From positions 1-44,277 of IMG/VR virus record IMGVR_UViG_3300024290_000007: DNA of 44,277 nucleotides; one strand, 5' to 3'. Of this stretch, positions 1-16,052 are shown one piece after another. The stretch is from a virus. The number at the start of each line of letters is the position of its first letter. Within the stretch, counting starts at the first letter, position 1. The position numbers and the translations under genes were made by a program. The notes beneath the pieces are model-generated. The model did no database searches and had not been told where the DNA came from. It saw nothing but the letters and a program-made list of their open reading frames with translations.

Positions 1-105
1 CCTGAAGCGCCCCACACTGTAGCGGGCCCCACCGCCAGACCGGCCACAGCCGGCGCCATGCCGCCGGGCACCGCCGGCCCTATGCCCGGCAGGACCGGCC
101 CCACG

Positions 106-161
106 TGCAGGCCTGCAGCGCGCCTGCAGGCCTGCAGGAGCGTGGGGCCTGCAGGCCTGCA
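106..161. repeat. Cluster of TGCAGGCCTGCA palindromes
   Basis: Three copies of a palindromic word lie within 56 bp: TGCAGGCCTGCA at 106-117, the 16-bp CCTGCAGGCCTGCAGG at 123-138, and TGCAGGCCTGCA again at 150-161. The outer copies are flanked by ACG and CGT, so the whole block is itself roughly an inverted repeat. No gene covers it convincingly. The function is unknown; cruciform formation or protein binding are possible. Confidence 0.6.
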
Positions 162-179
162 ACGTGCCTGTGGGGTGCA

Positions 180-211
180 GCAGCTCCAGGGCTCTCCGTG
201 CCTGGAGCTGC
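180..211 (-). terminator. Hairpin downstream of the early leftward operon
   Basis: A perfect 11-bp stem (GCAGCTCCAGG paired with CCTGGAGCTGC) encloses a 10-nt loop, about 40 bp past the stop at 249. No uridine run follows on either strand, so classic intrinsic termination is uncertain. It may instead be a transcript-end or processing structure. Confidence 0.35.
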
Positions 212-248
212 GCGCGCCGTGTATCCCGTGAGGCATGCGCGCAGCATC

Positions 249-497
249 TCAGGAGACATACCCGCGTGTCGAGGCTATCTCCTGCAGGCGCTGCGCAGGC
301 GCTGCAGGCACGCACCCCGCGGCCCCCACCCCCGTGCTGAGCGGGCGCTGCAGGGAGTAGAGCGACGCGCGCAGGCGCTCGACCTCGAGGTTGGTGGTAC
401 GGCGCAGTTCTGCAGCGCGCAGCTCGCGCTGCATCTCGAGCCATAGCTGCAGCAGCACCCAATGGCGCGGCTGGTGCGCGGCAACTGCCCAGCTCAC
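249..497 (-). CDS. Small hypothetical protein, last gene of early operon
   Basis: An 82-residue protein begins at a GTG (497-495) that overlaps the TGA of the resolvase gene as GTGA, the same coupling used by the three preceding genes. The translation contains a long amphipathic stretch from about residue 14 to 50 (QLWLEMQRELRAAELRRTT, then EVERLRASLYSLQ) that looks like a charged helix or coiled coil. This is far more protein-like than the competing frames. The C-terminus is Ala/Pro-rich. I do not recognise a family. Support is the overlap pattern and composition only. Longer start sites upstream would run through the resolvase and are unlikely. Confidence 0.5.
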   Translation of the reverse strand: MSWAVAAHQPRHWVLLQLWLEMQRELRAAELRRTTNLEVERLRASLYSLQRPLSTGVGAAGCVPAAPAQRLQEIASTRGYVS

Positions 498-1105
498 GGG
501 GTGTAGCTCCTGCCGAGCATCGAGAGCCCGAGGCGCTGCGCTACCGCGCTCGAGCAGATGGCGACTTGCCCGATGCAGATCGCCGCAGCCTCGTCTGCGC
601 CCAGGGTGCGGCGCTGACTGTGCTGCAGGTCCCGCTGCACGGTCTGCGACGCTATCTCCTGCTCGATACGTCGTGCTTGCGCGCGAGGCATACCGGCACG
701 CCCAAGCAGCGCGCGGCGCCACTCATTTGCGGTGCACTCCAGCATGCGGTCAGGCGAGCGGCCTGCGCTGCGCCACGTGTCGCGCCACAGTTCCACCGAG
801 CCCGCGAGCGACAGCGCTGCGCCCACGTGCCCGCCGAACGGGACCTCGATGACGGCCGCGAGCGGCAGGTTGCGGACCTCCGCCATGGTGATCGCGTCGC
901 GCACGATCAGCCGTCGCCAAGGCGCGTGGGTGGCGTCCGCTTCGGCGTAGTGGTGCAGGCGCCCGCAGACGTACGTCGCAACGCCCGAGCGTCGCGCAGC
1001 GTCGATCGTGAGCAGCACGGCGCGCAGCGGCTCAGCCGTGCGCGTGCCGAACGACTGCGGCTTGCGCTTGATGCGCAGCATCCCGTCGCGGGCGCCTCTG
1101 GTCAT
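494..1105 (-). CDS. RuvC-like Holliday junction resolvase
   Basis: This 203-residue protein is probably a RuvC-family crossover-junction endonuclease that resolves branched DNA during phage replication and packaging. An N-terminal acidic strand (LLTIDAARRSG, about residues 31-41) stands where RuvC has its first catalytic aspartate. Next come an EVPFGG segment near residue 86, the element ECTANEWRRALLG, and a C-terminal ADEAAAICIGQ that supplies the last two acidic residues, as in RuvC proteins (known family features). The ATG overlaps the upstream stop as ATGA. The position at the end of the early leftward operon fits a role just before packaging. The assignment rests on motifs alone. Confidence 0.75.
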   Translation of the reverse strand: MTRGARDGMLRIKRKPQSFGTRTAEPLRAVLLTIDAARRSGVATYVCGRLHHYAEADATHAPWRRLIVRDAITMAEVRNLPLAAVIEVPFGGHVGAALSLAGSVELWRDTWRSAGRSPDRMLECTANEWRRALLGRAGMPRAQARRIEQEIASQTVQRDLQHSQRRTLGADEAAAICIGQVAICSSAVAQRLGLSMLGRSYTP

Positions 1106-1428
1106 TTGCCGCTTTCTGGTGCGGCTCCTGCTGCTGGTGGCTGCGGCGCAGCGCGCCCGTCAAGTCTCCGCTCGGCATGCACGTAGCGGTTCGCTTGGAT
1201 AGTCAGCTCATGCGCGCGAGAGCTGCAGGCGAGCGCCCAGCGCGGGCGTTGTATGTCTCGCAGGTGATCGATGGCGTGCTGCAGCGCGACCTCGGCCTCG
1301 CGGTAGAAGTGCAGCACGCGGGCAAGCGCCGGGTTGGGCTCGCAGCTCAGCAGCGAGGAGATACTCAGCAGGCACTCGGGGTACGGAGGCAGCTCGGTTG
1401 CAGTGGTCTCGGTGTTGTCTGTAGTCAC
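1102..1428 (-). CDS. Hypothetical protein between unknown ORF and resolvase
   Basis: This 108-residue protein starts at a GTG overlapping the upstream TGA (GTGA) and ends in an ATGA overlap with the resolvase, so it is translationally coupled on both sides. The central part is helical and charged (ALARVLHFYREAEVALQHAI), followed by HAERRLDGRAAPQPP and a proline/alanine-rich tail. No catalytic motif, signal peptide or membrane segment is visible. I do not recognise the family. Being sandwiched between replication genes suggests an accessory role in DNA metabolism, which is inference. Confidence 0.65.
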   Translation of the reverse strand: MTTDNTETTATELPPYPECLLSISSLLSCEPNPALARVLHFYREAEVALQHAIDHLRDIQRPRWALACSSRAHELTIQANRYVHAERRLDGRAAPQPPAAGAAPESGK

Positions 1429-2123
1429 GTTGTGGTCTCCCAGAAGTCAGCCGACGCGACTGCCGCGCCGGATACGTCCACGAGCCGCGCGCCGCATGCG
1501 CGCAGCACAGTTCCAACCGTCAGCGCCTGCTGGTCGTGCGCGCTCACCCAGCAGCCGAGCGTCACGGCCGCGGTCAGCTCCCACGAGGCATCGCGCTGCT
1601 TCGCCGCGCACCAGTCCTCGAACGCAACCGCCGTGACTCGGTCTCTCGCGGCGGCCAGCGCGACTGCCGCCCACTCGGCGCCATGCAGCGTCACCAGCTG
1701 GCGACTGCGCGCCTGCGCGTAGTCGTCGCGGCTGGTCGTGACGACGAAGGCCGTGGCTGCGCCTCCTCGGATGCAGGCCTCGCAGAGCAGGGTGGTGGCC
1801 GCCGGCAGCGCCGGCAGGAGGCCCGCAGGGAAGTCCGACAGCTCGGAACACCTGCGAAGCGCCTCGGGGCTCCTGCGGGCGCTCAGGCGGCTGCGCGTCG
1901 AGGCCTTCCGCCCGAGCAGACCACGAACGTGAGCTGATGCGCTCACATTCGGACGCGCAGGCGCAGCGGGAGCGAGCACCGCCTGCGTCGAGGCCTGCAG
2001 CGCCTGCGCCGTAGCAGGTTCGCGCGGCGCTCTTTTGGGCGGCACCGCTTGTCCGCTGAACGGCAGGTCGCCTGCGTAGTCTGCAGGCGTCAGCTTGGGG
2101 CCTCTTTTGGGGCGCTTTCCCAT
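1425..2123 (-). CDS. Hypothetical protein, first gene after the iteron region
   Basis: A 232-residue protein begins at ATG 2123, chosen because an in-phase GGAG lies about 8 nt upstream and the protein then opens with a basic segment (MGKRPKRGPKLTPADYAGD). A longer reading to 2336 would run through the repeat array and translate as low-complexity Arg/Cys. Residues 1-90 are basic and Ala/Pro-rich. The C-terminal 130 residues look folded, with CEACIRGGAATAFVVTTSRDD and a hydrophobic strand pattern, and contain several cysteines. No family is recognised. The gene is coupled by GTGA to the next one. Confidence 0.6.
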   Translation of the reverse strand: MGKRPKRGPKLTPADYAGDLPFSGQAVPPKRAPREPATAQALQASTQAVLAPAAPARPNVSASAHVRGLLGRKASTRSRLSARRSPEALRRCSELSDFPAGLLPALPAATTLLCEACIRGGAATAFVVTTSRDDYAQARSRQLVTLHGAEWAAVALAAARDRVTAVAFEDWCAAKQRDASWELTAAVTLGCWVSAHDQQALTVGTVLRACGARLVDVSGAAVASADFWETTT

Positions 2124-2472
2124 CAGGCTGTCTCCACTTCCGAGAGCGCCCGCAAAAGTGGAGACACCGAGTGGAGACAGCCAGCGCAGCCAAAAAGCGC
2201 AGCATTCCGAGCACTTATGAGAATGAATTGATAGGTGTCTCCACTGTCTCCACTGTCTCCACACCCTTTGCGCTCTACACGCGCACGCACACGCGCTCGC
2301 GCGCGCTCGCTCTCGCACGCTCGCGCGCACACGCACGCGCCCGACGCACTTGCCGCTATGGAGACAGCGGAGACAGTGGAGACAGCAGAGCTAACTGCGC
2401 GGCATTCCAAGCGATTTGCCGTCTCCACAGGCTGTCTCAACAGCCGCGTGCTGGCGAAACTGGAGACAGCGT
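2124..2472. other. Candidate replication origin (iteron region)
   Basis: This is the only substantial gap inside the leftward replication operon, directly downstream of the primase-helicase gene. It contains about eleven copies of a 9-bp word, GTGGAGACA or its complement, many in tight 9-bp phase. Between the two tandem blocks is an alternating purine-pyrimidine stretch (about 2279-2342) made of CG/CA steps, a class of sequence prone to left-handed DNA and melting effects. Iteron arrays beside initiator genes are a known origin design. Calling this an origin is inference. Alternatives are operator sites or a termination/antitermination region. Confidence 0.5.
2129..2468. repeat. Iteron-like 9-bp repeats GTGGAGACA, inverted triplets
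   Basis: Copies read as TGTCTCCAC on the plus strand lie at 2129-2137 and at 2236-2244, 2245-2253 and 2254-2262, the last three perfectly contiguous. Near-copies lie at 2420-2428 and 2433-2441. Copies read as GTGGAGACA lie at 2158-2166, 2171-2179 and 2376-2384, with one-to-two-mismatch copies at 2358-2366, 2367-2375 and 2460-2468. The triplet at 2358-2384 is again contiguous and mirrors the triplet at 2236-2262. The two triplets face each other about 95 bp apart. Confidence 0.85.
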
Positions 2473-5463
2473 TCATGGCGCGAACGCGTCCTCAGCTGGG
2501 GGAGCCGTCAGCACATAGAGCCGGGTGCGCTTGCCGTTGATGCGCAGCTGGCAAGTGACGTGCGCGGTGCCGACCACCTGCTGCACGAGGCGCCCGCGCG
2601 CCACCAGGTCCCGCTTGAGCGCGTTCGTCCAGGCTAGGCCGCGGCTGACTAGATGGGCCTTGAGCGCCTCCGGGATGAAGCAGATCGCCCCGTCCTCGCG
2701 GATGTAGCCGTGCACCACGGGACGGCTCGCCGTGGGCGCTTCCCGCTCCCCGGTCTCGGCGTTCTTGGTGATCTGCGGAAACGCTGAGGGGGCCTGCGCA
2801 GGCCAGTCCTCGAGCACGTCTAGCACCCGCTCGAGCAACGTTGCTGGAGCGCCCCCGCCGTTCTGCGCGCCGCTGCAGCGCTGCTCGAACACTCGCCGCA
2901 CCGTCAGCCCGCCGGCCTGCCCGAGCCCGTACTCGCTCACCAGGTCCTCGGCGAGCGCCATCGCGGCGAAGTAGCCCGCGATACGTCCGTTGAGCGGGTT
3001 CCCACTGGCGCGCGCGATCTCCTGCAGCGCGCGCCGGTGCTCCTGCAGTTGTTCGCGCGCCGCTAGCAGGCGCGCAGGGTCAGCGGCGATGTCCACGACC
3101 TTGCGTAGCCACAGCATGCCGAGCGCTCCTGCGTGGGCGCTGCAGCGCTCGCGCACGCCGTCTACGCCTGCGCCGTCGAGCTTGCCGAACCCGGTGATCG
3201 GCAGGGAGATCACGCGGACCTGCGCGCCCGTTGCTGCAGCCTCGGAGGCCAGCTCGCGCTCACCGGTGCTGATGACCACCGTCTGCCAGCTCGCCGTGCG
3301 CCTCATGGTCAGCTCCTTCGTGGAACGCGCACGGCCGACGCCGTTGATCAGCATGTAGATCGCCGTCTGGATAGCGTCCGCGTCGCCGGTGCCGGCCTCG
3401 TCGAAGCACAGCGGCAGGTCGCAGAGCTGCACGGCGTGCTGCTCGAGGCCCGACATGGTCGTGTTCCAGCTCGGCACCCACGCGGAGCTGTGCGGGTTCC
3501 CGAACACCGATGCAGCGCAGCGCAGCATGCTCGTCTTACCCACGCTGGAGTCGCCGCATAGGTGCACCGCGAAGTTCGGCAGGTCGAAGGGCCGCAGCAG
3601 CGGCGCAGTGAGCGCTGCGAAGATGGCGAGCGCGCAGTCGTCCGAGGCCTGCGCGGCAACCTGCAGCGCCTGCGCGTGGTGCGTAGCCTCGAGCTCGGCG
3701 TCTGCAGCCCGGCAGCCCAGCGCGTCGAACGCCCGCGCTTGGTCGTAGTTCACGTCGAACACACGGGGCTCAGCGCCTGCAGGAGCGAACACCATGTCAG
3801 GCCCGAGCGCGAACTGGTCCTCGCACCAGCCTGCGCGGTCCACGCACTGCATGGGCTGCAGCTGCGCGCCGTTGCGGTCCTCCCACGCAGACAACCACTT
3901 GATGACGTCAGTCACGTTGGTTTCGTCTACGAGCGCGCCTGCACGCCGCAGCTCGCTCGACAGCGCTCGGGAGCCCGAGAGCGCTCGCGCGACCCGTATG
4001 CACTGCCAGCTGCGGCGCGCAGTCTGGAACCGCAGCTCGACCCGGTACTCGCCGTTGCGGTGCAGGTCCTGCAGCACACGCGTCACGAAGATCGGGCGCG
4101 GGCTGATGAGGCGCTTCTCGTCGTCGTTGTAGCCGCCGTGCAGCCACACTGCGCCTGCGTCATCGACCGCGTACGGCGCAGGCACCACGAAACCTGGCTC
4201 CCACGGCAAGTCGGCGCCGCCTGCGCTCGCACCTCCGAACATCGACAGCTGCTCGAGCGGCTGCTCGTTCACGCGCGGCGCGAGCTGCGCGATCTCCTCG
4301 CGTGTCGTGGCCAGCAGCTCGCGCGCAGCCTCGACGCCGCGTGCGAACGCGTAGTCGTCGATACCCTTATTGATGGGCTTGTCGGCCTTGCCTGCAGCGT
4401 ACTCGAGCGGCGGCAGCGCCATCGTGACGCTGCGCGCGCCGAGGCGCATGAGCAGGTCTGCGAGCTTGCGCATAGCTGCAAGCACGTTCGCGTTTGTATG
4501 CGCGTCGGAGTCGAAAACGATCACGTGGTCGCGGTTGGCGACCTCGTAGTGCAGCGCGATGTACGGGTGCAGGCGCGACGACTTCGAGCCTGGCGCAGAC
4601 CACGAGTCGACGCCTGTTAGCCCGACAACGCAGAGCCCGAGCTGCGCGATGAACAGCGCTTTCTTCTCGCCTTCGGTCCAGTAGAGCGGCGTCTCGGCGC
4701 GCAGCTGCGCAAGGCATTCTGCGAGCGGGGGCGTGTAGACCAGCAGCTCGGTACCGAACGGCTGGTCATACTTCTTGAGCTTCTGCTTCTGCCCCGGCTT
4801 GGTGCGCGGCACCGGCACCGGATACTCAGGCCGCAGGCGATACCCGTGCGGCTCTGCAGCGCCTGGAGCAAAGAACGGCAGGAGCAAGCCCGCAGCTGCA
4901 GCGCGCTCGCTGAGGTCTTTGTACGGGCCTGGCTGACAGCGGAACCCGTACGAGCGCCATTTGCCGTGGTGGATGACGGTGAGGCGCGCAGCTTCGATCG
5001 TTGCGTCCGTGAGCGCCGAGCTGCGCAGGTCCTCGAGGAGAATGTCTGTTGCGTGAATCGGGTGGTCGGTGCGGAACGACGCGAGGCCGGTGACGTCGGG
5101 AAGCTTGGGCACTGCAGCGCGCTTCTGCCGCGCGCTGTCGATAGGCACGACTGCGCCGCGCGTAGCGTCCGGCCATGCAGGAGCTGCAGCTTCGCGCTCG
5201 GGTGCTACGCCGACCGGCGCCTCAGTGCCCACAGGCAGTGGGAGCGCGCGCGTCGGCGCCTCGGGCAACGGTAGCGTTCGCGCTGCGGGAGGATCGGCGG
5301 GACCAGGGGCCACCGTCTCCTGCGCGGGCGTTTCGGGATCGGTTGCAGCGGCAGCGTGCGAGTAGTCATCGTCGTCGGCCTCCTCGGGGTCCAACGTGTA
5401 TCCGTGCGGGTTCGTGTCTACTGCGTCGTCCTGGTCCTCGTCCCACTCGCCGCCGCTTGACAT
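2473..5463 (-). CDS. Primase-helicase (DUF3854 TOPRIM-like plus DUF927-type helicase)
   Basis: This 996-residue protein is probably the phage replication initiator/helicase. The first 110 residues are acidic then Pro/Ala-rich and disordered. A TOPRIM-like DUF3854 module follows: WTEGEKKALF near residue 260, then VIVFDSDAHTNA, matching the Glu and DxD positions of TOPRIM primases. The C-terminal half carries a DUF927-type P-loop ATPase: Walker A GDSSVGKTS near residue 633, acidic LCFDEAGTGDAD near 686, and a sensor-like VVISTGE. Families of this kind prime and unwind DNA in phages and mobile elements. The gene ends at the edge of the iteron array. The ATG at 5463 has a G-rich ribosome site upstream. 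Function from domains is confident; the exact biochemical role is inferred. Confidence 0.8.
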   Translation of the reverse strand: MSSGGEWDEDQDDAVDTNPHGYTLDPEEADDDDYSHAAAATDPETPAQETVAPGPADPPAARTLPLPEAPTRALPLPVGTEAPVGVAPEREAAAPAWPDATRGAVVPIDSARQKRAAVPKLPDVTGLASFRTDHPIHATDILLEDLRSSALTDATIEAARLTVIHHGKWRSYGFRCQPGPYKDLSERAAAAGLLLPFFAPGAAEPHGYRLRPEYPVPVPRTKPGQKQKLKKYDQPFGTELLVYTPPLAECLAQLRAETPLYWTEGEKKALFIAQLGLCVVGLTGVDSWSAPGSKSSRLHPYIALHYEVANRDHVIVFDSDAHTNANVLAAMRKLADLLMRLGARSVTMALPPLEYAAGKADKPINKGIDDYAFARGVEAARELLATTREEIAQLAPRVNEQPLEQLSMFGGASAGGADLPWEPGFVVPAPYAVDDAGAVWLHGGYNDDEKRLISPRPIFVTRVLQDLHRNGEYRVELRFQTARRSWQCIRVARALSGSRALSSELRRAGALVDETNVTDVIKWLSAWEDRNGAQLQPMQCVDRAGWCEDQFALGPDMVFAPAGAEPRVFDVNYDQARAFDALGCRAADAELEATHHAQALQVAAQASDDCALAIFAALTAPLLRPFDLPNFAVHLCGDSSVGKTSMLRCAASVFGNPHSSAWVPSWNTTMSGLEQHAVQLCDLPLCFDEAGTGDADAIQTAIYMLINGVGRARSTKELTMRRTASWQTVVISTGERELASEAAATGAQVRVISLPITGFGKLDGAGVDGVRERCSAHAGALGMLWLRKVVDIAADPARLLAAREQLQEHRRALQEIARASGNPLNGRIAGYFAAMALAEDLVSEYGLGQAGGLTVRRVFEQRCSGAQNGGGAPATLLERVLDVLEDWPAQAPSAFPQITKNAETGEREAPTASRPVVHGYIREDGAICFIPEALKAHLVSRGLAWTNALKRDLVARGRLVQQVVGTAHVTCQLRINGKRTRLYVLTAPPAEDAFAP

Positions 5464-5475
5464 GTCGCCCCCGTG

Positions 5476-5889
5476 TTAGTTCGAGCTGTGCCGCGGCTTC
5501 TTGGACTTCCCCTTCGTGGTGCCGATGCCGATCGGAGTCGGCGACGGGATGAGTCTCATCTGCAGGTCTGCTTCGGGCATATCGCGGCGCTCGACTTCAG
5601 CGCCGGTGTCGGTGCGGATCAGCGAGTAGACTCGCGCGTCGAAATCGGGCTCCCACCTGCACGGCACGTCGCGCGTTTCGTGCTTGGTCTCGATGATTTT
5701 GCCGAGGTCGCCGCGCTTGTCAGACTGCTCGCGTATCGACGCGTTCAGCCTGCGTCGCTCGTCTTTGAACTCCTTGATTGTCGACTCGCATGCGGCCATG
5801 GCCTCGCCGCGCTCGAGCAGCTCGGCCTCGGTCAGCTCGCACTCCAGCTCGCGCACGACCGTTTCGACTTCCTGTGTCTTCGGGGGCAT
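5476..5889 (-). CDS. Hypothetical coiled-coil protein upstream of primase
   Basis: This 137-residue protein lies 12 bp upstream of the primase-helicase gene in the same operon. Residues 8-60 are strongly charged and heptad-like (TVVRELECELTEAELLERGE, then STIKEFKDERRRLNASIREQ), a likely coiled coil. The second half is strand-like (KHETRDVPCRWEPDFDARVY) and ends in a Lys-rich tail. Small coiled-coil proteins beside replication genes are common in phages, but I do not recognise a named family. The stop context is AACTAACA. Confidence 0.65.
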   Translation of the reverse strand: MPPKTQEVETVVRELECELTEAELLERGEAMAACESTIKEFKDERRRLNASIREQSDKRGDLGKIIETKHETRDVPCRWEPDFDARVYSLIRTDTGAEVERRDMPEADLQMRLIPSPTPIGIGTTKGKSKKPRHSSN

Positions 5890-5915
5890 AGTTCAATCCT
5901 CGTGATTCGGGACAC

Positions 5916-5972
5916 AAAAGCCAGCGAGCTGTCGACAGCGCAGACCATTCCGCGCTGTCGACGCTCGCTGGC
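5916..5972 (-). terminator. Intrinsic terminator after the Cro-like gene
   Basis: On the minus strand a stem of about 20 bp (GCCAGCGAGC..GACAGCG paired with its complement, one bulged base) with a 12-nt loop is followed by TTTT. It sits between the stop of the HTH gene (6004) and the start of the coiled-coil gene (5889). It could partially separate the regulator from the replication operon and would be a natural target for antitermination. Confidence 0.75.
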
Positions 5973-6003
5973 GGGGCTTAGAGCTTGAAGGCGCAGCGCG
6001 TAG

Positions 6004-6393
6004 CTACTCAGCGCGCGCGTCAGCGGGTGCCGATTCGGTGGCTGCTAGCGCGGCGAGCCGTTGCTCAAGCTCGTTGACGCGCTTGCGCAGCTTGCTGTTG
6101 GCGGCGCGCTGTTTATCTTCAGGCGTCTGCGGCTTCGGCTTCGCCTTCGGTTTGAGCGCTTTCCGCTTCGGGCTCTTACGCAGTGTCTGCAGCTCCGCCA
6201 TGCTGCATCGACCGCCCGTAGCAGTGTTTACGAGCGTCGCGTTCTCAAAGCTCAGCTTGCTCGGGCGCTCGGGATTGCACCACTTCCAGACGTACGTGTA
6301 TGGGAGCTGAACGCCCGTGCGCTCGCGGATCAAGCGGCGTAGCTGACGCGGGCCATCGGGGCAGAAAGCGGCAACGTACTCGTGCAATGTCAT
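6004..6393 (-). CDS. Cro-like HTH regulator (candidate early lytic switch)
   Basis: A 129-residue protein starts at ATG 6393 (MTLHEYVAAF), preceded by a weak GGTGAG. An in-frame TTG at 6462 would add 23 residues but would put an operator-like palindrome (6420-6437) inside the gene, so I prefer the ATG. The N-terminal half looks like a phage helix-turn-helix: RQLRRLIRERTGVQLPYTY, then VWKWC and a helix ending GGRCSMAEL. The C-terminal half is Lys-rich (RKSPKRKALKPKAKPKP), then a coiled coil (LRKRVNELEQRLAAL) suited to dimerisation. It is the first leftward gene, divergent from the CI-like gene, and is followed by a terminator. A Cro-like role is inferred from position. Confidence 0.6.
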   Translation of the reverse strand: MTLHEYVAAFCPDGPRQLRRLIRERTGVQLPYTYVWKWCNPERPSKLSFENATLVNTATGGRCSMAELQTLRKSPKRKALKPKAKPKPQTPEDKQRAANSKLRKRVNELEQRLAALAATESAPADARAE

Positions 6394-6607
6394 GCAGCTC
6401 ACCGAAGGTTCTGGAGAATGTGTCTCGCGAGGCACACTCGCATCCTCGGTTGAGTCGCGCAAGGCATATCAAAACAGCGCCGTAGGAGTTTCTTGCTGAC
6501 GGGGTGTGTCTCTCGCGCACATACCTCGCGCGAAAGCATGACGCCGTTATAGCGCGCGTGATATACGAGGACTCTTGAACCCCTAGTCCAAACAGATATC
6601 CGCAGCT
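6394..6607. promoter_or_regulatory. Divergent control region of the lysogeny switch
   Basis: This gap lies between the leftward HTH gene and the rightward XRE gene. It carries a near-perfect operator-like dyad at 6420-6437 (GTGTCTCGCGAGGCACAC), a right half-site CGCAAGGCATAT at about 6458-6469, and a left half-site with imperfect partner at 6520-6540. There is also a CTCGCGC-containing element around 6505-6522. I cannot place minus 35 and minus 10 boxes with confidence. The arrangement resembles a multi-operator immunity region. Confidence 0.6.
6420..6437. promoter_or_regulatory. Operator-like dyad, switch region
   Basis: GTGTCTCGCGAGGCACAC has 7-bp arms around CGCG with one mismatch between arms. 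It shares the CTCGCGAGGC core with the sites at 17.9-18.3 kb. It lies just upstream of the preferred ATG of the Cro-like gene. Confidence 0.6.
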
Positions 6608-7429
6608 ATGAACAACACTCCTCGTAAGCGCGTGAAAACTCCCACGCGCGTCCCGAAGGCAGCATTGAAGTCCGACACCGGCGCGAATCCTGCGCTGTCT
6701 AAACCGAATATCGACGATCCGCTTAGCGAGCCCACGCGTCATCGACGCGTCTGGGCTGCGTATCTTGCGCGCGGGTTTACTCGGCGGCAGTTCGCCGAGG
6801 AGCTGGGCACGAACTACCACACGGTCAACCGGTGGGACGCAGGCGCTGCAACGATCTCGCTCGACATGCTGCAACGTGCCAGCGAGCTTCTGAAATACAC
6901 AATGGACGAGCTGTGCTTCGGACGGCGCGGGCCTGTAGAAGCGCCGCGCGTCAACGCAGCGCCTGCAGCGCCTGCAGCGCCTGCAGCGCCTGCAATCGCA
7001 GCGCCCACTGCAGCTGCAGCGCCTGCAGCGCGCGCGGCGACTGCTGTTCGCGCAGCGCTAACAGCCCTTGCAGCGCCTGCTCAGCTCGTAGCGCCTGCTC
7101 AGCCTGCAGAGCGCGCCGGCAGCGCGCTGCACTTTGCAATCGGAAGTGTGCTGAACGAGTCGGAGATTCGGGCGTTGTTCGGCATGCAACGCATTGATCC
7201 GCAAACTCGCGCAGCGTTCGGCGAGCACACCGTAAGCCCCGTGGGGCGCTACCAGTCGTTCACTGCTGAGTACGTCACAGCTTGGTGCGCTGCGTACGCA
7301 GCGAGCCAGAGCCCGGAAGTCGCGCTCAATGCAGCGGTCAACGCTCGCGCGGTGACCGAGGCAGTCAGCAACGGGGTCTCTCCTGTTACCGCTGATGAAC
7401 TACGCGCAGCACTTCGCCAGAAGCAGTAG
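6608..7429 (+). CDS. XRE-family repressor candidate (CI-like)
   Basis: This 273-residue protein has an N-terminal Cro/CI-type helix-turn-helix: HRRVWAAYLARGFTRRQFAE, then ELGTNYHTVNRWDAGAATIS and LDMLQRASELL (about residues 40-97). An Ala/Pro linker of about 65 residues, encoded by tandem CTGCAG-containing repeats, follows. The C-terminal domain (residues 175-273) contains YVTAWCAAYAASQSPEVALN and is of unknown fold. There is no Ser-Lys self-cleavage signature, so RecA-driven autoproteolysis is not evident. It is divergent from the Cro-like gene and surrounded by the dyad sites, making it the best candidate for the protein that binds them (inference). The ribosome site is weak. Confidence 0.7.
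   Translation: MNNTPRKRVKTPTRVPKAALKSDTGANPALSKPNIDDPLSEPTRHRRVWAAYLARGFTRRQFAEELGTNYHTVNRWDAGAATISLDMLQRASELLKYTMDELCFGRRGPVEAPRVNAAPAAPAAPAAPAIAAPTAAAAPAARAATAVRAALTALAAPAQLVAPAQPAERAGSALHFAIGSVLNESEIRALFGMQRIDPQTRAAFGEHTVSPVGRYQSFTAEYVTAWCAAYAASQSPEVALNAAVNARAVTEAVSNGVSPVTADELRAALRQKQ
6957..7105 (+). repeat. Tandem GCGCCTGCA repeat coding an Ala/Pro linker
   Basis: Units of 9 bp (GCAGCGCCT/GCGCCTGCA) repeat in phase from about 6957 to 6995 and continue degenerately to about 7105, with seven CTGCAG palindromes by my count. They encode the AAPAAPAAPAAPA linker of the repressor candidate. Related CTGCAG-rich expansions occur in linkers of unrelated genes at 13.7, 20.1, 23.0 and 39.8 kb. Confidence 0.75.
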
Positions 7430-7712
7430 GCTCGAACACTTCGCGAGCGAGAGCTGCGATTGTGATCTGCCTCGGCAGCCGCAGCTCCAGCGCATCCAGC
7501 ACGTGACAAATGATCGCGCGCTGGATGCAAGCTCGCTGTTCCGCGGGTGTTGCTAGCGAGTCGTACTCGACGCGAGGACACACTGCGACGAAGCGGTAGC
7601 GCGCGGCAGGCCTCGGGCATAGCTCGATGTCGAGCGCAGCTGCAGTAGCTTCTGCCGACAAACCTGGGCAAGTGACTCGCAGGACATACGCGACTTGGCT
7701 AGCGATCGACAT
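7386..7712 (-). CDS. Hypothetical protein opposite the repressor gene; possibly degenerate ImmA-like
   Basis: A 108-residue protein starts at ATG 7712 behind a strong GGGGAGGA ribosome site, which decides this start over longer options. Its 3' end overlaps the 3' end of the repressor gene by 44 bp in convergent orientation. The middle reads YDSLATPAEQRACIQRAIIC followed by HVLDALEL and ends ALAREVFEP. This is reminiscent of the ImmA/IrrE (DUF955) layout (paeqR..HE..H..A.EllmP) but lacks the HExxH zinc motif. ImmA-type antirepressors often lie beside CI-like genes. I regard this as a weak family resemblance. It could equally be an unrelated small protein. Confidence 0.5.
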   Translation of the reverse strand: MSIASQVAYVLRVTCPGLSAEATAAALDIELCPRPAARYRFVAVCPRVEYDSLATPAEQRACIQRAIICHVLDALELRLPRQITIAALAREVFEPTASGEVLRVVHQR

Positions 7713-7918
7713 CAGTATCCTCCCCTGGACGGTCGTCTGCAGCGCGGTGCGAAACTGTGATAGCCGATCCACAAGATCGACACACCAGGATTCATATCTC
7801 GCGAGCAAAGTTAGGTGCGACACCGCCGGTGTTGTGTGTGCAGCCCGCGCGGGCACAAAACAATCACTAGCGAGATATGTTGACCTCGTTGTGCCTCGGC
7901 AGATATACCTCGCCGGAC
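7713..7918. promoter_or_regulatory. Divergent control region upstream of the nuclease operon
   Basis: The region separates the leftward 7712 gene from the rightward nuclease operon. Operator-like half sites occur at 7793-7806 (CATATCTCGCGAGC), at 7868-7878 in inverse orientation (AGCGAGATATG), and at 7913-7921 (ATACCTCGCCGGACAT), which reaches the ATG at 7919. No clear sigma-70 boxes are identified. Confidence 0.5.
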
Positions 7919-9103
7919 ATGGCCTGGAACTATCGACGCTTCGGCACGAGCAGCTTCCCGATCCACAAGTCGCACGTGAACACCATCACGGGCACGTTCG
8001 GATGTCCGAGGCGCTTCCAGTTCGAGATGGACCTGCTAGCGGGCGCAGTCGAACGCGACGCAACGAGGCGCGGGATCATCTCGGCGAGCCTCGCGTGCGG
8101 GTCTGCAGCGCACGAGACCATCGCGCGCGCGCTGAGTAACCCCGAACTCTGCGACGCGGTGCTAGCAGGCCCAGGCGCGGTCACCCGAGCTCGGGTCAAG
8201 GCAACGTTCTGGGAGGAGCTGGAGACCGAGCAGGAAGGCCGCTCGATCGACTGGGGCAAGCACGACGCCGACGACTACATCGACATGGTGTACGGGGCGC
8301 TCGATCGGCTGCACTTGCACGTTGCTGGCATTGTGATGCTCGAGGCGGGCTTCACGCTGCAGCTCGACGGCCTTTACCTCGCTGGGCACATCGACCTGAT
8401 GTACAGGCCTCGGGCGAACCCTGCAGCGCTTGCGCTCGGTGACTGGAAAACAGGCAAAACGAAGCCCGATCCCATCGAGCTGAACCACGGCTGGGAAGCG
8501 GGCATCTACAGCGCAGCAATGCGCTTCGGGACGTTCCTCGGGCGCGAGCACGTGAGCTTCGAGCGCGCGCCGAGCGGCGAGTGGGTAGGCACGTGCGGAG
8601 CGCGCAGCGTCACGCGTGGAACGCGCTGGCAGGCTGAGCGTGATGCGCTCGAGGCTGCGCTCGATGACGTAGCGCAAGGCGTCGAGCATCCCGGCACGGT
8701 GCGCTTCGAGGAGTTCCCCGCTGAGATTCGCCACGTTCACTTGCGCGATTACATCCCGTATCGGAAGGCAGGAGCGAAGCAGGCGAAGCGCGCCGAGGAC
8801 CTGACGCACTACGGGCTGACGCAGCCTGCGTCGGTGCTCTACAAGGCGGGCGAGATGCGCGGGCCTGCGTGGCTGCCGGTGCGTCGCGACGAGCGGGAAG
8901 TGCCTCGCCTGAAGCACAGGCTGCGTACCGTCGTGGGCACGGTCCGCATGGGGCGTTTCCTGGACCTCGTAGGCGAGCGCTGCAACCGGTGCCCGTTCTC
9001 CACGCAGTGCCTCAACGACGGGTACGCCCCGCGGGGTGAGGAGCTGCAGCGCATCACGCAGGCCTTCGAGGAGGCCGGGCTCGACATCAGCGGCGACGAC
9101 TAA
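7919..9103 (+). CDS. PD-(D/E)XK nuclease with predicted Fe-S staple (Cas4/AddB-like)
   Basis: This 394-residue protein belongs to the RecB/Cas4-like nuclease superfamily. The catalytic core is visible as GHIDLMY (about residue 156, Asp) followed by LGDWKTGKTK (about 172, the D-x-K element with QxxxY-like LNHGWEAGIYSAAM after it). One cysteine lies near residue 29 (FGCPRRFQFE) and three more near 355-364 (CNRCPFSTQC). This is the 1+3 arrangement that holds a 4Fe-4S cluster in AddB and Cas4 families. A role in DNA end processing or recombination is expected, alongside the downstream RecD2-type helicase. An alternative ATG at 7877 adds 14 residues. Neither start has a good ribosome site. Confidence 0.8.
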   Translation: MAWNYRRFGTSSFPIHKSHVNTITGTFGCPRRFQFEMDLLAGAVERDATRRGIISASLACGSAAHETIARALSNPELCDAVLAGPGAVTRARVKATFWEELETEQEGRSIDWGKHDADDYIDMVYGALDRLHLHVAGIVMLEAGFTLQLDGLYLAGHIDLMYRPRANPAALALGDWKTGKTKPDPIELNHGWEAGIYSAAMRFGTFLGREHVSFERAPSGEWVGTCGARSVTRGTRWQAERDALEAALDDVAQGVEHPGTVRFEEFPAEIRHVHLRDYIPYRKAGAKQAKRAEDLTHYGLTQPASVLYKAGEMRGPAWLPVRRDEREVPRLKHRLRTVVGTVRMGRFLDLVGERCNRCPFSTQCLNDGYAPRGEELQRITQAFEEAGLDISGDD

Positions 9104-9120
9104 CAGGCAGGAGACAACAG

Positions 9121-9387
9121 ATGAGCACCAGCAACAAAGACGAGGACAAGCCGTGCGACCACGAGGTAGCGGGGCCTGCAGCGCTCGCGGCGGTGATGAC
9201 GCTGCGGATGCACATCAGCGGCCCGACAGCGCGCGCGAAGCTGCAGACTGCAGCGCTGCTGGTGCTCTCCGCTGCAGACGACATGAGCATCAGCACCGGC
9301 GAAGCGATCGCAGCGCTGCGCACCGAAGTCCGCAAAGTCGAAGAGGCAATCGCAGCACGTCGCGCGGCTGACCACGCAGACAACTAA
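9121..9387 (+). CDS. Small hypothetical protein in recombination operon
   Basis: This 88-residue protein has a good ribosome site (GGCAGGAGACAACAG before the ATG). It is predicted mostly helical (ALAAVMTLRMHISGPTARAK, then LRTEVRKVEEAIAARR at the C-terminus), with no catalytic motif. It lies 17 bp after the nuclease gene and 41 bp before the Cys-containing protein, so is probably cotranscribed. No family is recognised. Confidence 0.65.
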   Translation: MSTSNKDEDKPCDHEVAGPAALAAVMTLRMHISGPTARAKLQTAALLVLSAADDMSISTGEAIAALRTEVRKVEEAIAARRAADHADN

Positions 9388-9428
9388 CATCAGCACCTAA
9401 ACACGCAACACACCACGGAGAGAAACGC

Positions 9429-10376
9429 ATGCCGAAACCACCAGCACCAACGACCCCCAGAGCTCCGGCGCAGCGCGCAGGAGCACCAGCAGCACCCGCT
9501 GCAGCGCCGAGGCCCGCCGAGACTCACAGCGCGCTTGCGCTTGCGCCGTCAGTCGACGATGCAGCGCTGCGCGCTTTCGAGGCTGCAGGCATCGACCTGA
9601 GCGAGGACGAGTCGTGCAGCGAGCTTGCGCCGAGCGACTTCCGCACGGCCGTCAAGCTGTTCAACCTCAAGGGCAAGACTGCAGCAGACGGGCGCAAGGT
9701 GACTCAAGACGTGTTCTACGACTCGGTCGAGAACGCGGTGCAAGACACGATCGAGTTCGCCATTCTCGGGCTGCACAAGTCGAACCTCTACGGCATCTAC
9801 GATGCAGGCGAAGGCCGCACGAACCGCGTGTGCTCGAGCTACGACCAGGTCACAGGCGTCTGGGCAGAAGACGGCCACACGCGCAAGTGCGAAGGTTGCC
9901 CCGATCGCAACTCGGTGAAGCAGGCTGACGGCAAGGTGCGGCCGAACTGCAGCCCGCTGTTCGATCTGTTCTGCCTCGAGCTGCAGAACACTCGTGTGTT
10001 CATGTTGCGGGGCAAGCGTACGTCGTTGCCCCCAATCAAGAACTACCTGCACCAGCATCACTTCGGGAAGGGCGGCGTGCGGAACGGCAAGCGCCTCGAC
10101 CTCGCGTTGTATGCGTACCGCGTGACGGCGCGCCTCGAGATGGACGCCAGCGGGAACTATGCGAACCTGCTGCTCGAGAAGGGCGCGCTGTTCAGCCCGG
10201 GCGATCTCAAGGTGCTGGCGGAGTCTGCAAGCGGCATCCGTGAAACGCTCGCGGAGCGCTTGGCTGAGGCTGAGCAGCAGACTGCAGCCACCGAGGCGCA
10301 CGACACCGACGCGAGCTTCAACTACGGCAACAACGCAGCTGCAGGCGCTGAGCCGCAGCGCTTCGTCACGACCTGA
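9429..10376 (+). CDS. Cys-cluster protein, possible ssDNA-binding protein
   Basis: This 315-residue protein has a disordered Pro/Ala N-terminus (1-50). A structured core follows with TAVKLFNLKGKT and a probable metal-binding cluster: VCSSYDQVTG, then RKCEGCPDRN and NCSPLF (about residues 138-178), giving C..CxxC..C. After this come beta-rich segments (RVFMLRGKRTSL, LDLALYAYRVTARLEM). Proteins of this appearance lie next to RecB-like nucleases and helicases in other phages and are often called ssDNA-binding or recombination-associated; I recall the type rather than a named family. The tail after residue 285 is acidic/disordered, as in many SSBs. A strong terminator follows. Confidence 0.55.
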   Translation: MPKPPAPTTPRAPAQRAGAPAAPAAAPRPAETHSALALAPSVDDAALRAFEAAGIDLSEDESCSELAPSDFRTAVKLFNLKGKTAADGRKVTQDVFYDSVENAVQDTIEFAILGLHKSNLYGIYDAGEGRTNRVCSSYDQVTGVWAEDGHTRKCEGCPDRNSVKQADGKVRPNCSPLFDLFCLELQNTRVFMLRGKRTSLPPIKNYLHQHHFGKGGVRNGKRLDLALYAYRVTARLEMDASGNYANLLLEKGALFSPGDLKVLAESASGIRETLAERLAEAEQQTAATEAHDTDASFNYGNNAAAGAEPQRFVTT

Positions 10377-10399
10377 TTCTGCAGCCTGCGCGCTGCCCC

Positions 10400-10445
10400 G
10401 AAAACTCGCGCTATCGGCGACAGCCTGAGCGCGAGTTTTCTTTTT
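10400..10445 (+). terminator. Intrinsic terminator after the Cys-cluster gene
   Basis: A perfect 13-bp stem (GAAAACTCGCGCT with AGCGCGAGTTTTC) and a 15-nt loop are followed by TTTTT. It lies 24 bp after the stop at 10376 and 35 bp before the helicase ATG. Confidence 0.9.
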
Positions 10446-10479
10446 CTGCGGTCTAACAACTAACAACGCTGAGGTTCCG

Positions 10480-12894
10480 ATGAACGAGGTATTGCTCTGC
10501 GAAGTGGTGTCGTGGCGTGACGAGCCGCGGGAGTCGTCCGGCTGGCACATTATCCGCGTGCGCGGGATGGATGACACCGATCACACTGTGACGGGCTGCA
10601 ACCTTCCGCGCCCCGGCTCGCGCTGCGAGTTCCACGGCGAGTGGCAGTCGACAAAATGGGGCGAGCAGTTTTACGTCCGCAACATTGCTGCAACGCGCCC
10701 GCCGCTTACAGCTGCAGGAGTAGAGCGCTGGCTTGAGGACCGTTGCGAAGGCATCGGCAAGGCGAAGGCTGCAGCTATCCTGACCTACTTCGATGGCGAT
10801 CCTGCGCGCCTGTGGGCTGCGCTCGAGACGGGGCCGATCGTGCTTGCGAACGTGCCGGGGCTGAACGCCGAACTCGCGGCCCACGTGCACGAGTGCTACG
10901 AGGCGGAAGGCGCAGCGCGCGAGCACTACGCAACGCTACGAGGCTGGCGCCTGACGCAAGCGCAGATCAGCCGCATCCTGAAACACTGGCCGATTGCTGA
11001 GGCCTGCAGGCGCCTGTACGACGACCCGTACCTGCTCGCAGAGCACATCGGCGGCTTCGGGTTCAAGCGCGCAGATGACATCGCGAACGAGATCGGCGTC
11101 CCGAAGCACTCCCGGCAGCGCCTGCGCGCCGGCATCCTGCACGCACTGTCCGAGGCCGCGCAGGCTGGGCACGTGTTCGGCGACCTGAACCTGTTTGAAG
11201 GTATCTCGCAGTCGTTCCTGCGCGTGCCGCTGCACGAGACGGTGGACGTGCTCAAGGAGCTGCTCGACGCGGGGCGTGTAATCGGCGAGGACGGCGCGCG
11301 AATGTACTTGCCGATCTACGAGCGTGCGGAGCGCGAGTCTGCAGAACAGACGCTGGAGCTGCTGCAGCTGCAGCGCGAGATGGCAGACGGGGCGCTGCCG
11401 CGCGACTACACCGCGGCCGCGGTCGGGGCAGTGGGCTTCAAGCTGCACCCGCAGCAGCTCGCTGCGATCAACCTGGCTGCAGATATGTTCCGCCCGTTCG
11501 CGCTGATCACCGGCGGCCCAGGCACGGGCAAGACGACCATCCTGCAGTACGCAATCGAGGCGCTGCGCGCGCAAGGCATCGGGGTAGTGCTCGCTGCGCC
11601 GACAGGCAAGGCCGCGAAGCGCATGACTGAGGCAACGGGGCACGGCGCGCAGACACTTCACAAGCTGCTGGGCTTCCGGCCTGACCACGTAGTCGACTGC
11701 GACGCGTGCCAGCGCGCGTCGGGGCGCTTCGAGCGCGCCTCGATGGAGCGCTGCGCGATCTTCGTAGACGAGGCCTCGATGGTGGACGTGCAGCTGTGGG
11801 CCGAGCTGATGCGTGCGATCCGTCGAGGAGGCAACCGCGCAGTCGTGCGCCTGATTGGCGACGCAGACCAGCTGCCGCCGGTGGGCCCAGGGCAACCGTT
11901 CCAAGACCATCTGCGCGCGCTTACTGCAGGCCCGCATGCGGATGCTGTCGTGCGCCTCGAGGCAGTGTTTCGCCAGGGACACGGCTCGTGGGTCGCAGAG
12001 TCTGCGCCGGTCATCCTCGCGGGTCGCGTGCCGGACCTCTCGCAGCGCGCAGACTTCCGCTTCGTCGACGTGCACCGCGCAGACCAAGTGCCCGTTGCAA
12101 TCGAGCGCCTGCTGCTGGGCGTGTACGACGCTGCAGACTGGGACGCGTCGACGCTCGGCGCAGACTACGTGCCCAAGAAGAAAGCGCCGACGGGTGTGCC
12201 TGCGCCTGTACTTGTGCCGCAGCACAAGGGGCTCGCAGGCGTTGCAGTCATCAACCGACTGCTCAGCGAGCACTACAATCCGCACGCTGCAGCAATGTCC
12301 GAGCAGGACCTCGTGCGCATCGCGCTCGAGGACGGCACGGACCTGCGCGTGGGCGCCCGCGTGCTCTGCACGAAGAACGACTACACGCGCAACGTCCGCA
12401 ACGGCGACACGGGCGTGATCGAGTCGATGGTGATGGAGCGCGACAAGCGCGGAGAGCCCCGGCCGAAAGTGCTCGTGCGCCTCGACGCTGACGAGACGAC
12501 TGCGCAGCTCATCCTGGGCGCGCAGCAGAGCGGTGAGGAGCTGCCGCAGACTGCGCTCGTCGAGTACTCGTTCACGCAGGCGCGCGAGCAGCTCACGCTG
12601 GCGTACGCCATGACAATCCACAAGTCGCAGGGTTCGCAGTATCCGTGGGTTGTTGTCGTGTGCCATTCGAGTCACGCGCGCATGCTGACTCGCCGGCTCA
12701 TCTACACCGCGCTGACGCGCGCGAGCGAAGGCGTGGTGCTCGTAGGCAACCGCGAAGGCATCGAGCGCGCAGTGGGTAACGCGCAGGAGCAATCGCGCAA
12801 CACATGGCTGAGGCAGCGCCTGCAGACGGGCGCGCGAGCTGCAGCTGCGCGCGCCGCAGCAAGTGCAGCAGCAGACGCGGAGCATGCGTCGTGA
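10480..12894 (+). CDS. RecD2-type ATP-dependent DNA helicase
   Basis: This 804-residue SF1B helicase has the RecD2 layout. Residues 1-90 look like an OB-like region. Helix-hairpin-helix segments follow (CEGIGKAKAAAILTYFDG near 88 and HIGGFGFKRADDIANEIG near 190). Walker A is GGPGTGKTT (about 345-353), Walker B FVDEASMVD (about 428), motif III GDADQLPPVG (about 460), and motif V/VI TIHKSQGSQY (about 711) and YTALTRAS. The family unwinds DNA 5' to 3'. Phage copies work in recombination, repair or replication without RecBC. It lies downstream of the PD-(D/E)XK nuclease, with a terminator between, so the two may act together (inference). The C-terminal Ala-rich tail is unusual. Confidence 0.92.
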   Translation: MNEVLLCEVVSWRDEPRESSGWHIIRVRGMDDTDHTVTGCNLPRPGSRCEFHGEWQSTKWGEQFYVRNIAATRPPLTAAGVERWLEDRCEGIGKAKAAAILTYFDGDPARLWAALETGPIVLANVPGLNAELAAHVHECYEAEGAAREHYATLRGWRLTQAQISRILKHWPIAEACRRLYDDPYLLAEHIGGFGFKRADDIANEIGVPKHSRQRLRAGILHALSEAAQAGHVFGDLNLFEGISQSFLRVPLHETVDVLKELLDAGRVIGEDGARMYLPIYERAERESAEQTLELLQLQREMADGALPRDYTAAAVGAVGFKLHPQQLAAINLAADMFRPFALITGGPGTGKTTILQYAIEALRAQGIGVVLAAPTGKAAKRMTEATGHGAQTLHKLLGFRPDHVVDCDACQRASGRFERASMERCAIFVDEASMVDVQLWAELMRAIRRGGNRAVVRLIGDADQLPPVGPGQPFQDHLRALTAGPHADAVVRLEAVFRQGHGSWVAESAPVILAGRVPDLSQRADFRFVDVHRADQVPVAIERLLLGVYDAADWDASTLGADYVPKKKAPTGVPAPVLVPQHKGLAGVAVINRLLSEHYNPHAAAMSEQDLVRIALEDGTDLRVGARVLCTKNDYTRNVRNGDTGVIESMVMERDKRGEPRPKVLVRLDADETTAQLILGAQQSGEELPQTALVEYSFTQAREQLTLAYAMTIHKSQGSQYPWVVVVCHSSHARMLTRRLIYTALTRASEGVVLVGNREGIERAVGNAQEQSRNTWLRQRLQTGARAAAARAAASAAADAEHAS

Positions 12895-13106
12895 CGCGCG
12901 ACGAACTACTCGAGCACATGGCGCAGGCAGTGCACGAGCACTGCGAGCCCGAGGACGAGCTGCTGATCGCAGAGGTCCTGATCACGCAGCCTGCGCGCAT
13001 GCTCGCGATGATCAACGGCGCGCTGCAGAGGCGCTTCACAGACGCCGAGTTCGCCGCGTTCATGCTGCAGAGCGCAAGGCGCATTCACGGTGGACCGACG
13101 ACCTGA
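12891..13106 (+). CDS. Small hypothetical protein coupled to RecD2-type helicase
   Basis: A 71-residue acidic protein starts at GTG 12891, whose GTGA overlaps the helicase stop. Longer in-frame starts would lie entirely inside the helicase gene. The sequence is helical (RDELLEHMAQAVHEHCEPED, then EFAAFMLQSARRIH). No motif is recognised. The coupling suggests it is made with the helicase. A strong terminator follows. Confidence 0.65.
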   Translation: MTRDELLEHMAQAVHEHCEPEDELLIAEVLITQPARMLAMINGALQRRFTDAEFAAFMLQSARRIHGGPTT

Positions 13107-13146
13107 CACAACGAACAGTCAACCTGACAGTCAGCAAGCAGGAGTA

Positions 13147-13204
13147 GTCGACTATTTTGTGGTCAGGCGTTCTACCGACTGACCACAAAATAGTTGACGT
13201 TTTT
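13147..13204 (+). terminator. Strong intrinsic terminator after the RecD2 operon
   Basis: A 19-bp stem (GTCGACTATTTTGTGGTCA with its complement, one G-T pair) and a 14-nt loop are followed by GTTTTT. The stem is A/T-rich compared with surrounding DNA. The right arm contains a palindromic match to the left arm long enough to act on both strands. Confidence 0.9.
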
Positions 13205-13281
13205 CGCACGAGTCGCTTTTTACCCACATCGGACTACGGCTAAGGTTTAGACAGTTGGTTGACGCAAGCAGGAGAGAGCAG

Positions 13282-13473
13282 ATGAACGCAGCAGAAGTTA
13301 TCGTGGGCGGTGTGTACGTGACACGGATTGCGGATCGGATGACGAAGGTTGTTGTGATTGCAGTAGCTTCTACGCCTGCCGGCGCCCGCAAGATGTACGA
13401 AGTACGCCCCGTGCGCAGCACGCGCGACACGTTCCTCGTGCGCTCCGCTCATCAGCTCTACATCGCGAAGTGA
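13282..13473 (+). CDS. Small beta-rich phage protein (SH3/KOW-like)
   Basis: A 63-residue protein starts at ATG 13282 behind AGGAGAGAG. A TTG at 13255 would add nine residues without a ribosome site. The pattern VIVGGVYVTRIADRMTKVVV, then KMYEVRPVRSTRDTFL and SAHQLYIAK, is a run of short beta strands typical of small phage proteins with an SH3-like barrel. Its role is unknown. It is flanked by a terminator upstream and a GC-rich hairpin downstream, so is probably a separate short transcript. Confidence 0.65.
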   Translation: MNAAEVIVGGVYVTRIADRMTKVVVIAVASTPAGARKMYEVRPVRSTRDTFLVRSAHQLYIAK

Positions 13474-13482
13474 AACTAACAG

Positions 13483-13507
13483 GCGCCCCGGCAGGAGGCC
13501 GGGGCGC
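13483..13507 (+). terminator. GC-rich hairpin after the small beta-rich gene
   Basis: A perfect 10-bp stem (GCGCCCCGGC/GCCGGGGCGC) has a 5-nt loop and starts 10 bp after the stop. No T-run follows, so termination would be weak or need Rho. It may instead protect the transcript end. Confidence 0.5.
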
Positions 13508-13564
13508 TGCGCACCTAGACTCGACCTAAACCCTAGACCTCACAGAATCGAAAGCAGTAAGACC

Positions 13565-14464
13565 ATGGCCACCAAGAACGCTAAGACCGCCTCCAAGAAC
13601 GCCCCGAAGACTGCCGCCAAGAACGCTCCCAAAACCCCCAAGCCCGCCCCCTGGATGGACATGGCGAGCGTAGGCAAGGCTGCGATTGCAGCGCAGGAGA
13701 AGGCCCCGAAGGCAGCGCCTGCAGCGCAGGAGCCCAAGGCCCCGAAGGCCCCGAAGGCAGCGCCTGCAGCAGCGCCTGCAGCGCAGGAGCCCAAGGCCCG
13801 CAAGGTGGACTTCGGCCTACTGAGCACGCCCGACCTGCGCAAGCTGTGCAAGGTAGCCAAGGGTGAGATCGCGGTGGCCGCGAAGGCTGCGCTTGCTGCG
13901 CGCCTGGCGGTGGAGACAACGAAGGCAGCAGCAGCGCCTGCAGCAGCGCCTGCGCCTGCAGCAGTGCCTGCGCCCACGAAGGCCGCGAAGGCGCCCAAGG
14001 CTGAGAAGGCCGCGAAGGCGCGCAACGTGAACACGAACAGCGCCGTGCACGCCCCCGAGACGCTCGAAGCCTGCCAGGGCAAGGCGCCCAAGGGCGACAG
14101 CATCCACGCCCACTTCCTGCAGTTCCTGGCGCACAACGCTGCCTCGAACAGCGAGGCCTTCGTGGGTAGCCTGCGCCGCCCCCTGGGCGAGTTCATGGAC
14201 TTCCTGAAGGCGCAGCGCATCACCACGTGGGCGCAGCTCGACAGCAAGACGCTGGTGGCCTACCGCAAGGCTGCGAAGCAGACCGAGTCCGGCGAGGCGC
14301 GCGCAGTGTCCACGATGCGCATGTCGCTGGCGCGGGTCATCACCTTCCTGCGCGCCCAGGAGGAAGGCCTGGTGAACGCCGACGTGAGCCTCCTGCGGGT
14401 GAAGCTCAGCGCGGAGGAAAAGCAGGAGAAGGCCGAGGCTGCTTTCGTCGCGGAGGAGGAGTGA
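13565..14464 (+). CDS. Histone-H1-like tail fused to recombinase core-binding domain
   Basis: This 299-residue protein has three parts. Residues 1-78 are Lys/Ala/Pro repeats like histone H1 or bacterial nucleoid proteins (KNAKTASKNAPKTAAKNAPK; duplicated AAPAAQEPKA). Residues 79-112 resemble a SAP motif (LSTPDLRKLCKVAKGEIAVA), and then a second Lys/Ala/Pro linker follows. Residues 165-270 match the SAM-like N-terminal core-binding domain of tyrosine recombinases (FLQFLAHNAASNSEAFVGSL, RITTWAQLDSKTLVAYRK, TMRMSLARVITFLRAQ). No catalytic domain follows: there is no R..HxxR..Y. It is probably a DNA-binding architectural protein. Codon use is richer in GCC and AAG than in neighbours, suggesting high expression or a separate origin. 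Confidence 0.7.
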   Translation: MATKNAKTASKNAPKTAAKNAPKTPKPAPWMDMASVGKAAIAAQEKAPKAAPAAQEPKAPKAPKAAPAAAPAAQEPKARKVDFGLLSTPDLRKLCKVAKGEIAVAAKAALAARLAVETTKAAAAPAAAPAPAAVPAPTKAAKAPKAEKAAKARNVNTNSAVHAPETLEACQGKAPKGDSIHAHFLQFLAHNAASNSEAFVGSLRRPLGEFMDFLKAQRITTWAQLDSKTLVAYRKAAKQTESGEARAVSTMRMSLARVITFLRAQEEGLVNADVSLLRVKLSAEEKQEKAEAAFVAEEE

Positions 14465-14673: not shown

Positions 14674-14689
14674 CAGGTAGAACAGACGG

Positions 14690-15666: not shown

Positions 15667-15669
15667 GCA

Positions 15670-15978: not shown

Positions 15979-16052
15979 GGGGGCTCGCGCAGATAGTTGC
16001 GCGAACGCGCCCGCAGCGCCAAAAAAGCTGCCGTGTGTCGGTGGACGTAGCG

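Follow-up and report, generated by a model that had tools for sequence, protein, structure and literature searches.

Replication origins of phage-inducible chromosomal islands (PICIs) consist of two iteron sets around an AT-rich region 3' of rep, a layout described as "shared by ... no other known bacterial replicon" (PMC6092414). Rep of the Staphylococcus aureus pathogenicity islands (SaPIs) was reported to read its origin via the C-terminal domain, and the C-terminal domain of Cch2 from the staphylococcal cassette chromosome mec (SCCmec) binds the repeats directly downstream, AAGTG iterons, specifically in vitro (PMC7581432). In the SaPI PT1028 CGGGAACT-type repeats are found 3' of Rep. The annotation of the P4 record places type 1 ori repeats (crr) just 3' of alpha, in 9-bp steps and in both orientations. 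For the PICI-like elements (PLEs) of Vibrio a coupled change of origin and DNA-binding domain was described, and an iteron-targeting phage nuclease may drive this change (PMC8263062). Here we analyze an iteron array beside a DUF3854-DUF927 primase-helicase, P0001, in the virus record IMGVR_UViG_3300024290_000007. The whole record of 44,277 bases, classed as linear, is called the window. The array is very probably the replication origin of this phage, an origin of the P4/PICI kind whose units would be read by the C-terminal domain of the helicase and apparently change together with it.

P0001 (2473-5463, minus strand) has the array at its 3' end, and P0002 (1425-2123, minus strand) adjoins the array on the other side. 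On both strands of the window, 16 matches to GTGGAGACA with up to one mismatch were counted, 12 of them in 2129-2468 and 4 in the remaining 44 kb. This total is near chance (shuffle mean 10.5, with 16 reached in 4 of 100 shuffles). Thus, the signal of the array is its local clustering and not the total number. The best-8-mer score of the 470-bp region was 21, compared to a mean of 6.3 and a maximum of 9 after dinucleotide shuffling. The original prediction, made from the letters of the window, had counted about eleven copies in 340 bp and proposed that the 9-mer would be rarer elsewhere. The clustering and the local enrichment were confirmed, and the copy number is corrected to 12.

Three exact copies of GTGGAGACA are located at 2129-2137 (minus strand), 2158-2166 (plus strand) and 2171-2179 (plus strand). 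They are followed by a triplet of exact iterons in 9-bp phase at 2236-2262 (minus strand), found by motif count and inverted-repeat search. The second triplet, at 2358-2384 (plus strand), flanks the core on its other side and consists of ATGGAGACA, GCGGAGACA and GTGGAGACA, again in 9-bp phase. Together they make up an inverted repeat of 26 nt whose arms are 96% complementary and 97 nt apart. Two perfectly phased facing triplets had been predicted; phase and orientation hold, all three units are exact in 2236-2262, and the first two units of 2358-2384 carry one mismatch each. The remaining copies, each with one mismatch, are GTGGAGACG (2420-2428, minus strand), GTTGAGACA (2433-2441, minus strand) and CTGGAGACA (2460-2468, plus strand). 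Only 4 bp separate the last of these from the stop codon of the helicase (2473-2475). The P4/PICI-type rep-ori module likewise has its iterons directly 3' of the initiator gene and two sets around a core.

The core between the facing triplets (2263-2357) is a candidate unwinding element, in which purine/pyrimidine alternation is densest at 2281-2340. This is the most alternating 60-bp window of the entire contig (0.83), equaled by none of the 43,778 windows outside the region, and the tract predicted at about 2279-2342 is therefore real. The core is GC-rich and thus departs from the AT-rich core of the P4/PICI-type module. Within the 3' region, GC content is lowest in a 60-bp stretch starting at +203 (0.45), most of which is outside the core.

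The gene adjoining the array is indeed a primase-helicase, as predicted. P0001 (996 amino acids), the proposed initiator, matched DUF927 (6e-39) and DUF3854 (6.5e-14) in Pfam and the DNA primase/helicase group in PHROG. By sequence it also matched SaPIbov1 Rep (8tch, 2e-15) and SCCmec Cch (5dgk, 1.4e-10) in the PDB. AlphaFold predicted a winged helix for the C-terminal segment from an alignment of 27 such segments (mean predicted local distance difference test score 83). The domain covers about residues 927-985 (2509-2685, minus strand), with the predicted recognition helix at about residues 947-955 (2599-2625, minus strand), and on the basis of this model and of fold and profile matches it is proposed as the iteron reader. 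Its best PDB folds were Cch (5dgk) and SaPIbov1 Rep (8tch), followed by TcpK, a relaxosome protein whose structure was determined together with oriT DNA (E-values 0.005 to 0.15, probabilities 0.97 to 1.0). A C-terminal profile search again matched 5dgk (E=0.001). The proposed initiator is thus a homologue of SaPI Rep, as in the P4/PICI-type module.

Compared with the PICI/SaPI rep-ori module, the window shares a homologous initiator, an origin directly 3' of it, two sets flanking a core and a C-terminal domain matching that of SaPIbov1 Rep. It differs in its GC-rich alternating core, in the fusion of the primase domain and in being a tailed-phage contig: PICIs borrow virion proteins from a helper, whereas this contig encodes its own Mu-like portal, gpT and DUF2586 protein. 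P4 resembles it in repeat steps, orientations and the place 3' of a primase-helicase, and the P4 unit [G/T]GTGAACA is close to TGG-NNN-CA. In contrast, P4 has an additional ori site kilobases away, and its helicase family and core differ. SCCmec Cch likewise contains DUF927, but iterons and layout are different, and the proven binding is that of Cch2 and not of the DUF927 protein. The Vibrio PLE initiator is unrelated (RepA_N), and its iterons are about 30 bp long and semi-palindromic. No initiator domain of the RepA_N or Rep_3 type, typical of iteron-plasmid origins, was found in P0001 or P0002. The earlier statement that no described match is known is half right: for the layout the PICIs (two sets, core, 3' of the initiator; PMC6092414) provide one. 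The alternating core and the rapid concerted change described below are unusual. For concerted iteron switching in this origin class no paper was found in a search that left most subscription journals uncovered. New are the presence of this origin layout in these phages, the common frame of the units, their concerted switching and the alternating core.

Protein and alignment searches provided 27 DUF927 loci as relatives, plus one distant match (L206). Most of the 27 possess an array at the same place and with similar spacing, as the prediction had asked of related phages, but the unit is different in nearly every one. The 3' region scored above the maximum of 40 shuffles in 15 of the 17 scored relatives; L022 and L033 failed, the margin was narrow in L026, L028 and L031, and L006 was scored on 151 bp only. 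Set positions are alike despite different units: those of L010 (25/34/45, 76/85/94, 196/205/214, 245/268/277) may be compared with 14/42/55, 98/107/116, 221/230/239 and 303/316/346 in the window. The frame TGG-NNN-CA fits most units, with at least one frame position departing in L021, L023, L032, L036, L187, L188 and L194. Units of further relatives are TGGTCTCA (L179), TGGACTAA (L191), GGGACACA (L192 and L197) and TGGGACGG (L194). With 22 unit label states, among them "none" and "degenerate", 21 changes are required on a helicase-core tree, a number that partly reflects the labelling. For the distant match L206 no array was seen 3' of the helicase.

The most alternating 60 bp of the own locus lie in the origin in 6 of the 27 relatives, with no outside window equal. 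In four of these (L187, L191, L192, L197) the stretch is placed between the facing sets; in L188 and L199 its place is less clear. An alternating core was not found in the other DUF927 relatives. L020, L023, L036 and L194 exhibit a CT-rich and AT-rich stretch at the core position. Furthermore, a second common element near GAAATCnnT was noticed in the spacers between sets of L010, L021, L024, L025, L034, L192 and others; GAAATCA occurs in 6 of 20 and AATCATT in 7 of 20 origins, neither in control stretches, and the counterpart in the window is CAAATCGCTTGG.

Sister phages revealed how the units change. Between L036 and L194 all seven scored units switched from TGGGACTGG to TGGGACGGG by the same T-to-G change. 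Iteron columns showed 8 differences in 63 and non-iteron origin columns 18 in 282 (94% identical). Since this amount of change does not separate the two classes (Fisher P 0.11), what matters here is that every unit changed in the same way, not how much it changed. Between L020 and L023 all eight scored units switched from TGGGACCAC to TGAGACCAC, essentially at the third base only, with 8 differences in 72 iteron columns and 109 in 300 other origin columns (36% diverged). Gene conversion between copies and stepwise selection could both have led to such a concerted switch. In L036 and L194 the beginning of the P0002-like gene, about 390-440 bp beyond the stop codon of the helicase, also contains iteron-like CAGTCCC or CCGTCCC repeats, which seem partly to follow the unit switch.

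The helicases of L036 and L194 differ at 4 of about 320 columns of the helicase domain (columns 520-840), while 9 of the 25 residues that form the recognition helix and wing are changed. In the control pair L192/L197, which has one common unit, the last 60 amino acids are identical, with 56 differences elsewhere. Several close pairs with different units showed an excess of changes in the last 110 columns (L029/L031, P 6.5e-7; L020/L036, 2.6e-8; L023/L036, 8.8e-12; also significant for L023/L194 and L020/L194). The pairs L025/L026, L025/L030 and L026/L030 with the same or close units showed none by this count; by the last-100 count L025/L030 gave P 0.002. L006/L022, where one unit is degenerate, had a C-terminal excess (P 6e-4). 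The association between unit and C-terminal domain is suggestive but not proven, the covariation resting on few pairs.

The same design was detected beyond DUF927. A blind scan for TGGNNNCANTGGNNNCANTGGNNNCA, performed as a search for three phased TGGNNNCAN units, yielded at least 120 stretches, most of them not arrays, and at least 20 loci passed a mirror filter. Among the mirror-filtered matches listed, arrays directly 3' of VapE-domain proteins were found in L066, L113, L122, L125 and L151, plus L121; in L125 a small frame separates gene and array, and L121 is near a contig edge. L088, also among them, carries its array beside an NrS-1-polymerase-like protein. Much of this array (L088:2020-2650) is present twice in tandem, with TGGTTACA units resembling the NrS-1 primase site TTTGGTTA. 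A genome search with VapE in one class yielded few loci. A VapE-seeded scan separated one group with clear arrays (L207-L232, in part) from one without; in the Pseudomonas VapE group (RLGWRRVRLPALAKSGQRPWAYKKP) no clear array was observed within 440 bp of the stop. Six TGGGACA members of the VapE set have KGDQM before the helix and six others I, T, L, I, A and A in place of G, a comparison that ignores descent. The helicase gene is followed by a gap with repeats, noted without shuffle comparison, in the isolates Marinobacter PS3, Bacillus phi105, Paenibacillus ApiWellbeing, Acidovorax ACF1, Thermoanaerobacterium THSA-485A and Pseudomonas phiAH14b. Pseudomonas U5, where another gene follows directly, and Rhodobacter RcCWillis showed no clear array 3' of the helicase.

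The proposed mechanism is as follows. The primase-helicase would bind the 9-bp units via its C-terminal winged helix and would assemble on both of the mirror-facing sets, probably in the form of two hexamers. The helicase may then open the alternating core, the candidate place of melting, and the fused primase would prime afterwards. The frame TGG...CA of the unit is largely constant and its centre variable. Initiator and iterons would all change together, so that the specificity between initiator and origin would be particular to each phage. The selective reason may be that this insulates a phage from related replicons or satellites.

Several observations weigh against this reading. The last-110 count is not significant for L036/L194 (P 0.16) and borderline for L020/L023 (P 0.048). 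Both pairs also show differences in another variable stretch, located before the helicase domain. L006/L179, with the same unit, still show C-terminal excess (P 3e-5). A Mantel-type test of unit against C-terminal divergence over all pairs gave a weak partial correlation that was not significant (r 0.09, p 0.23). No recognisable array was found 3' of the helicase in L033, L193 and L201 and only a degenerate one in L022, the units and their register were in part chosen manually, and there is no clear GC-skew turn at the array, so that skew does not locate an origin. On the other side are the position 3' of a SaPI-Rep-like helicase, the arrays of the relatives and the layout of P4 crr and the PICIs. 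The predicted phage replication origin is well supported by these data, and we regard it as highly probable.

Among the alternatives, an origin whose repeats are read single-stranded by the fused primase as primer start sites, and not as duplex by the winged helix, survives best, though we consider it unlikely. Primer synthesis by NrS-1 polymerase begins at TTTGGTTA or GTG(G) (PMC8718748), the repeats of the NrS-1-like phage L088 are TGGTTACA, and priming by SCCmec CCPol-MP was located in the iteron region (PMC7581432). However, the units occur in both orientations and in mirrored sets, the frame is constant though the primase type varies (DUF3854, Prim-Pol, NrS-1 type), and in the clearest pair, L036/L194, the unit change accompanies the C-terminal domain. 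That the repeats serve gene control or partition, as operators or binding sites of a different protein, is quite improbable. P0002 (232 amino acids), on the other side of the array, would be one candidate, as similar proteins flank the array in relatives. Yet it belongs to no known family and has no known domain by Pfam and PHROG searches, the P0002-like proteins of L036 and L194 are 94% identical despite the unit switch, and in VapE phages the same arrays adjoin other genes. Ordinary repeat turnover by slippage or gene conversion, with no role in initiator specificity, is the least probable: gene conversion does yield concerted change and fast change alone could account for differing units, but spacing and orientation of the sets are kept while the sequence changes, and the eight units of L020 and L023 differ at one common position in an origin otherwise 36% diverged.

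Exact matches to a 26-mer of the array were recovered at four loci in genome contigs. None adjoins a recognised primase-helicase; the matches in L016, L017 and L019 resemble repeats within coding sequence, and that in L018 has other genes as neighbours. Of the viral loci with the exact 18-mer, which included L014, L012, L013 and L015 were rejected as coding, and only L011 was recognised as an origin-like array. This VapE phage contig (L011:1950-2430) carries the identical unit GTGGAGACA mirrored around an AT-rich core beside a helicase of another family. A megablast of positions 1-20000 against phages gave no match. Near the contig end (100-180) palindromic CCTGCAGGCCTGCAG motifs are repeated.

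The broadest form of our proposal is tentative, with the odds somewhat against it. DUF927, VapE and P4-like replicons may constitute a widespread origin class in which one winged helix reads TGG-NNN-CA, with joint switches of its recognition helix and of all the roughly 12 iterons to new central bases. Replicon conflict would drive these readable codes, and a Z-prone tract would replace the AT-rich melting element in some GC-rich phages. The origin layout said to be unique to PICIs is extended to many tailed phages, cultured ones included, and provides a simple rule for locating origins in phage genomes. In the natural pairs L036/L194, L020/L023 and VapE L211/L217 one or few bases per iteron and few recognition residues are changed. 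Therefore, the joint change of an initiator and a dozen of its binding sites is directly testable.
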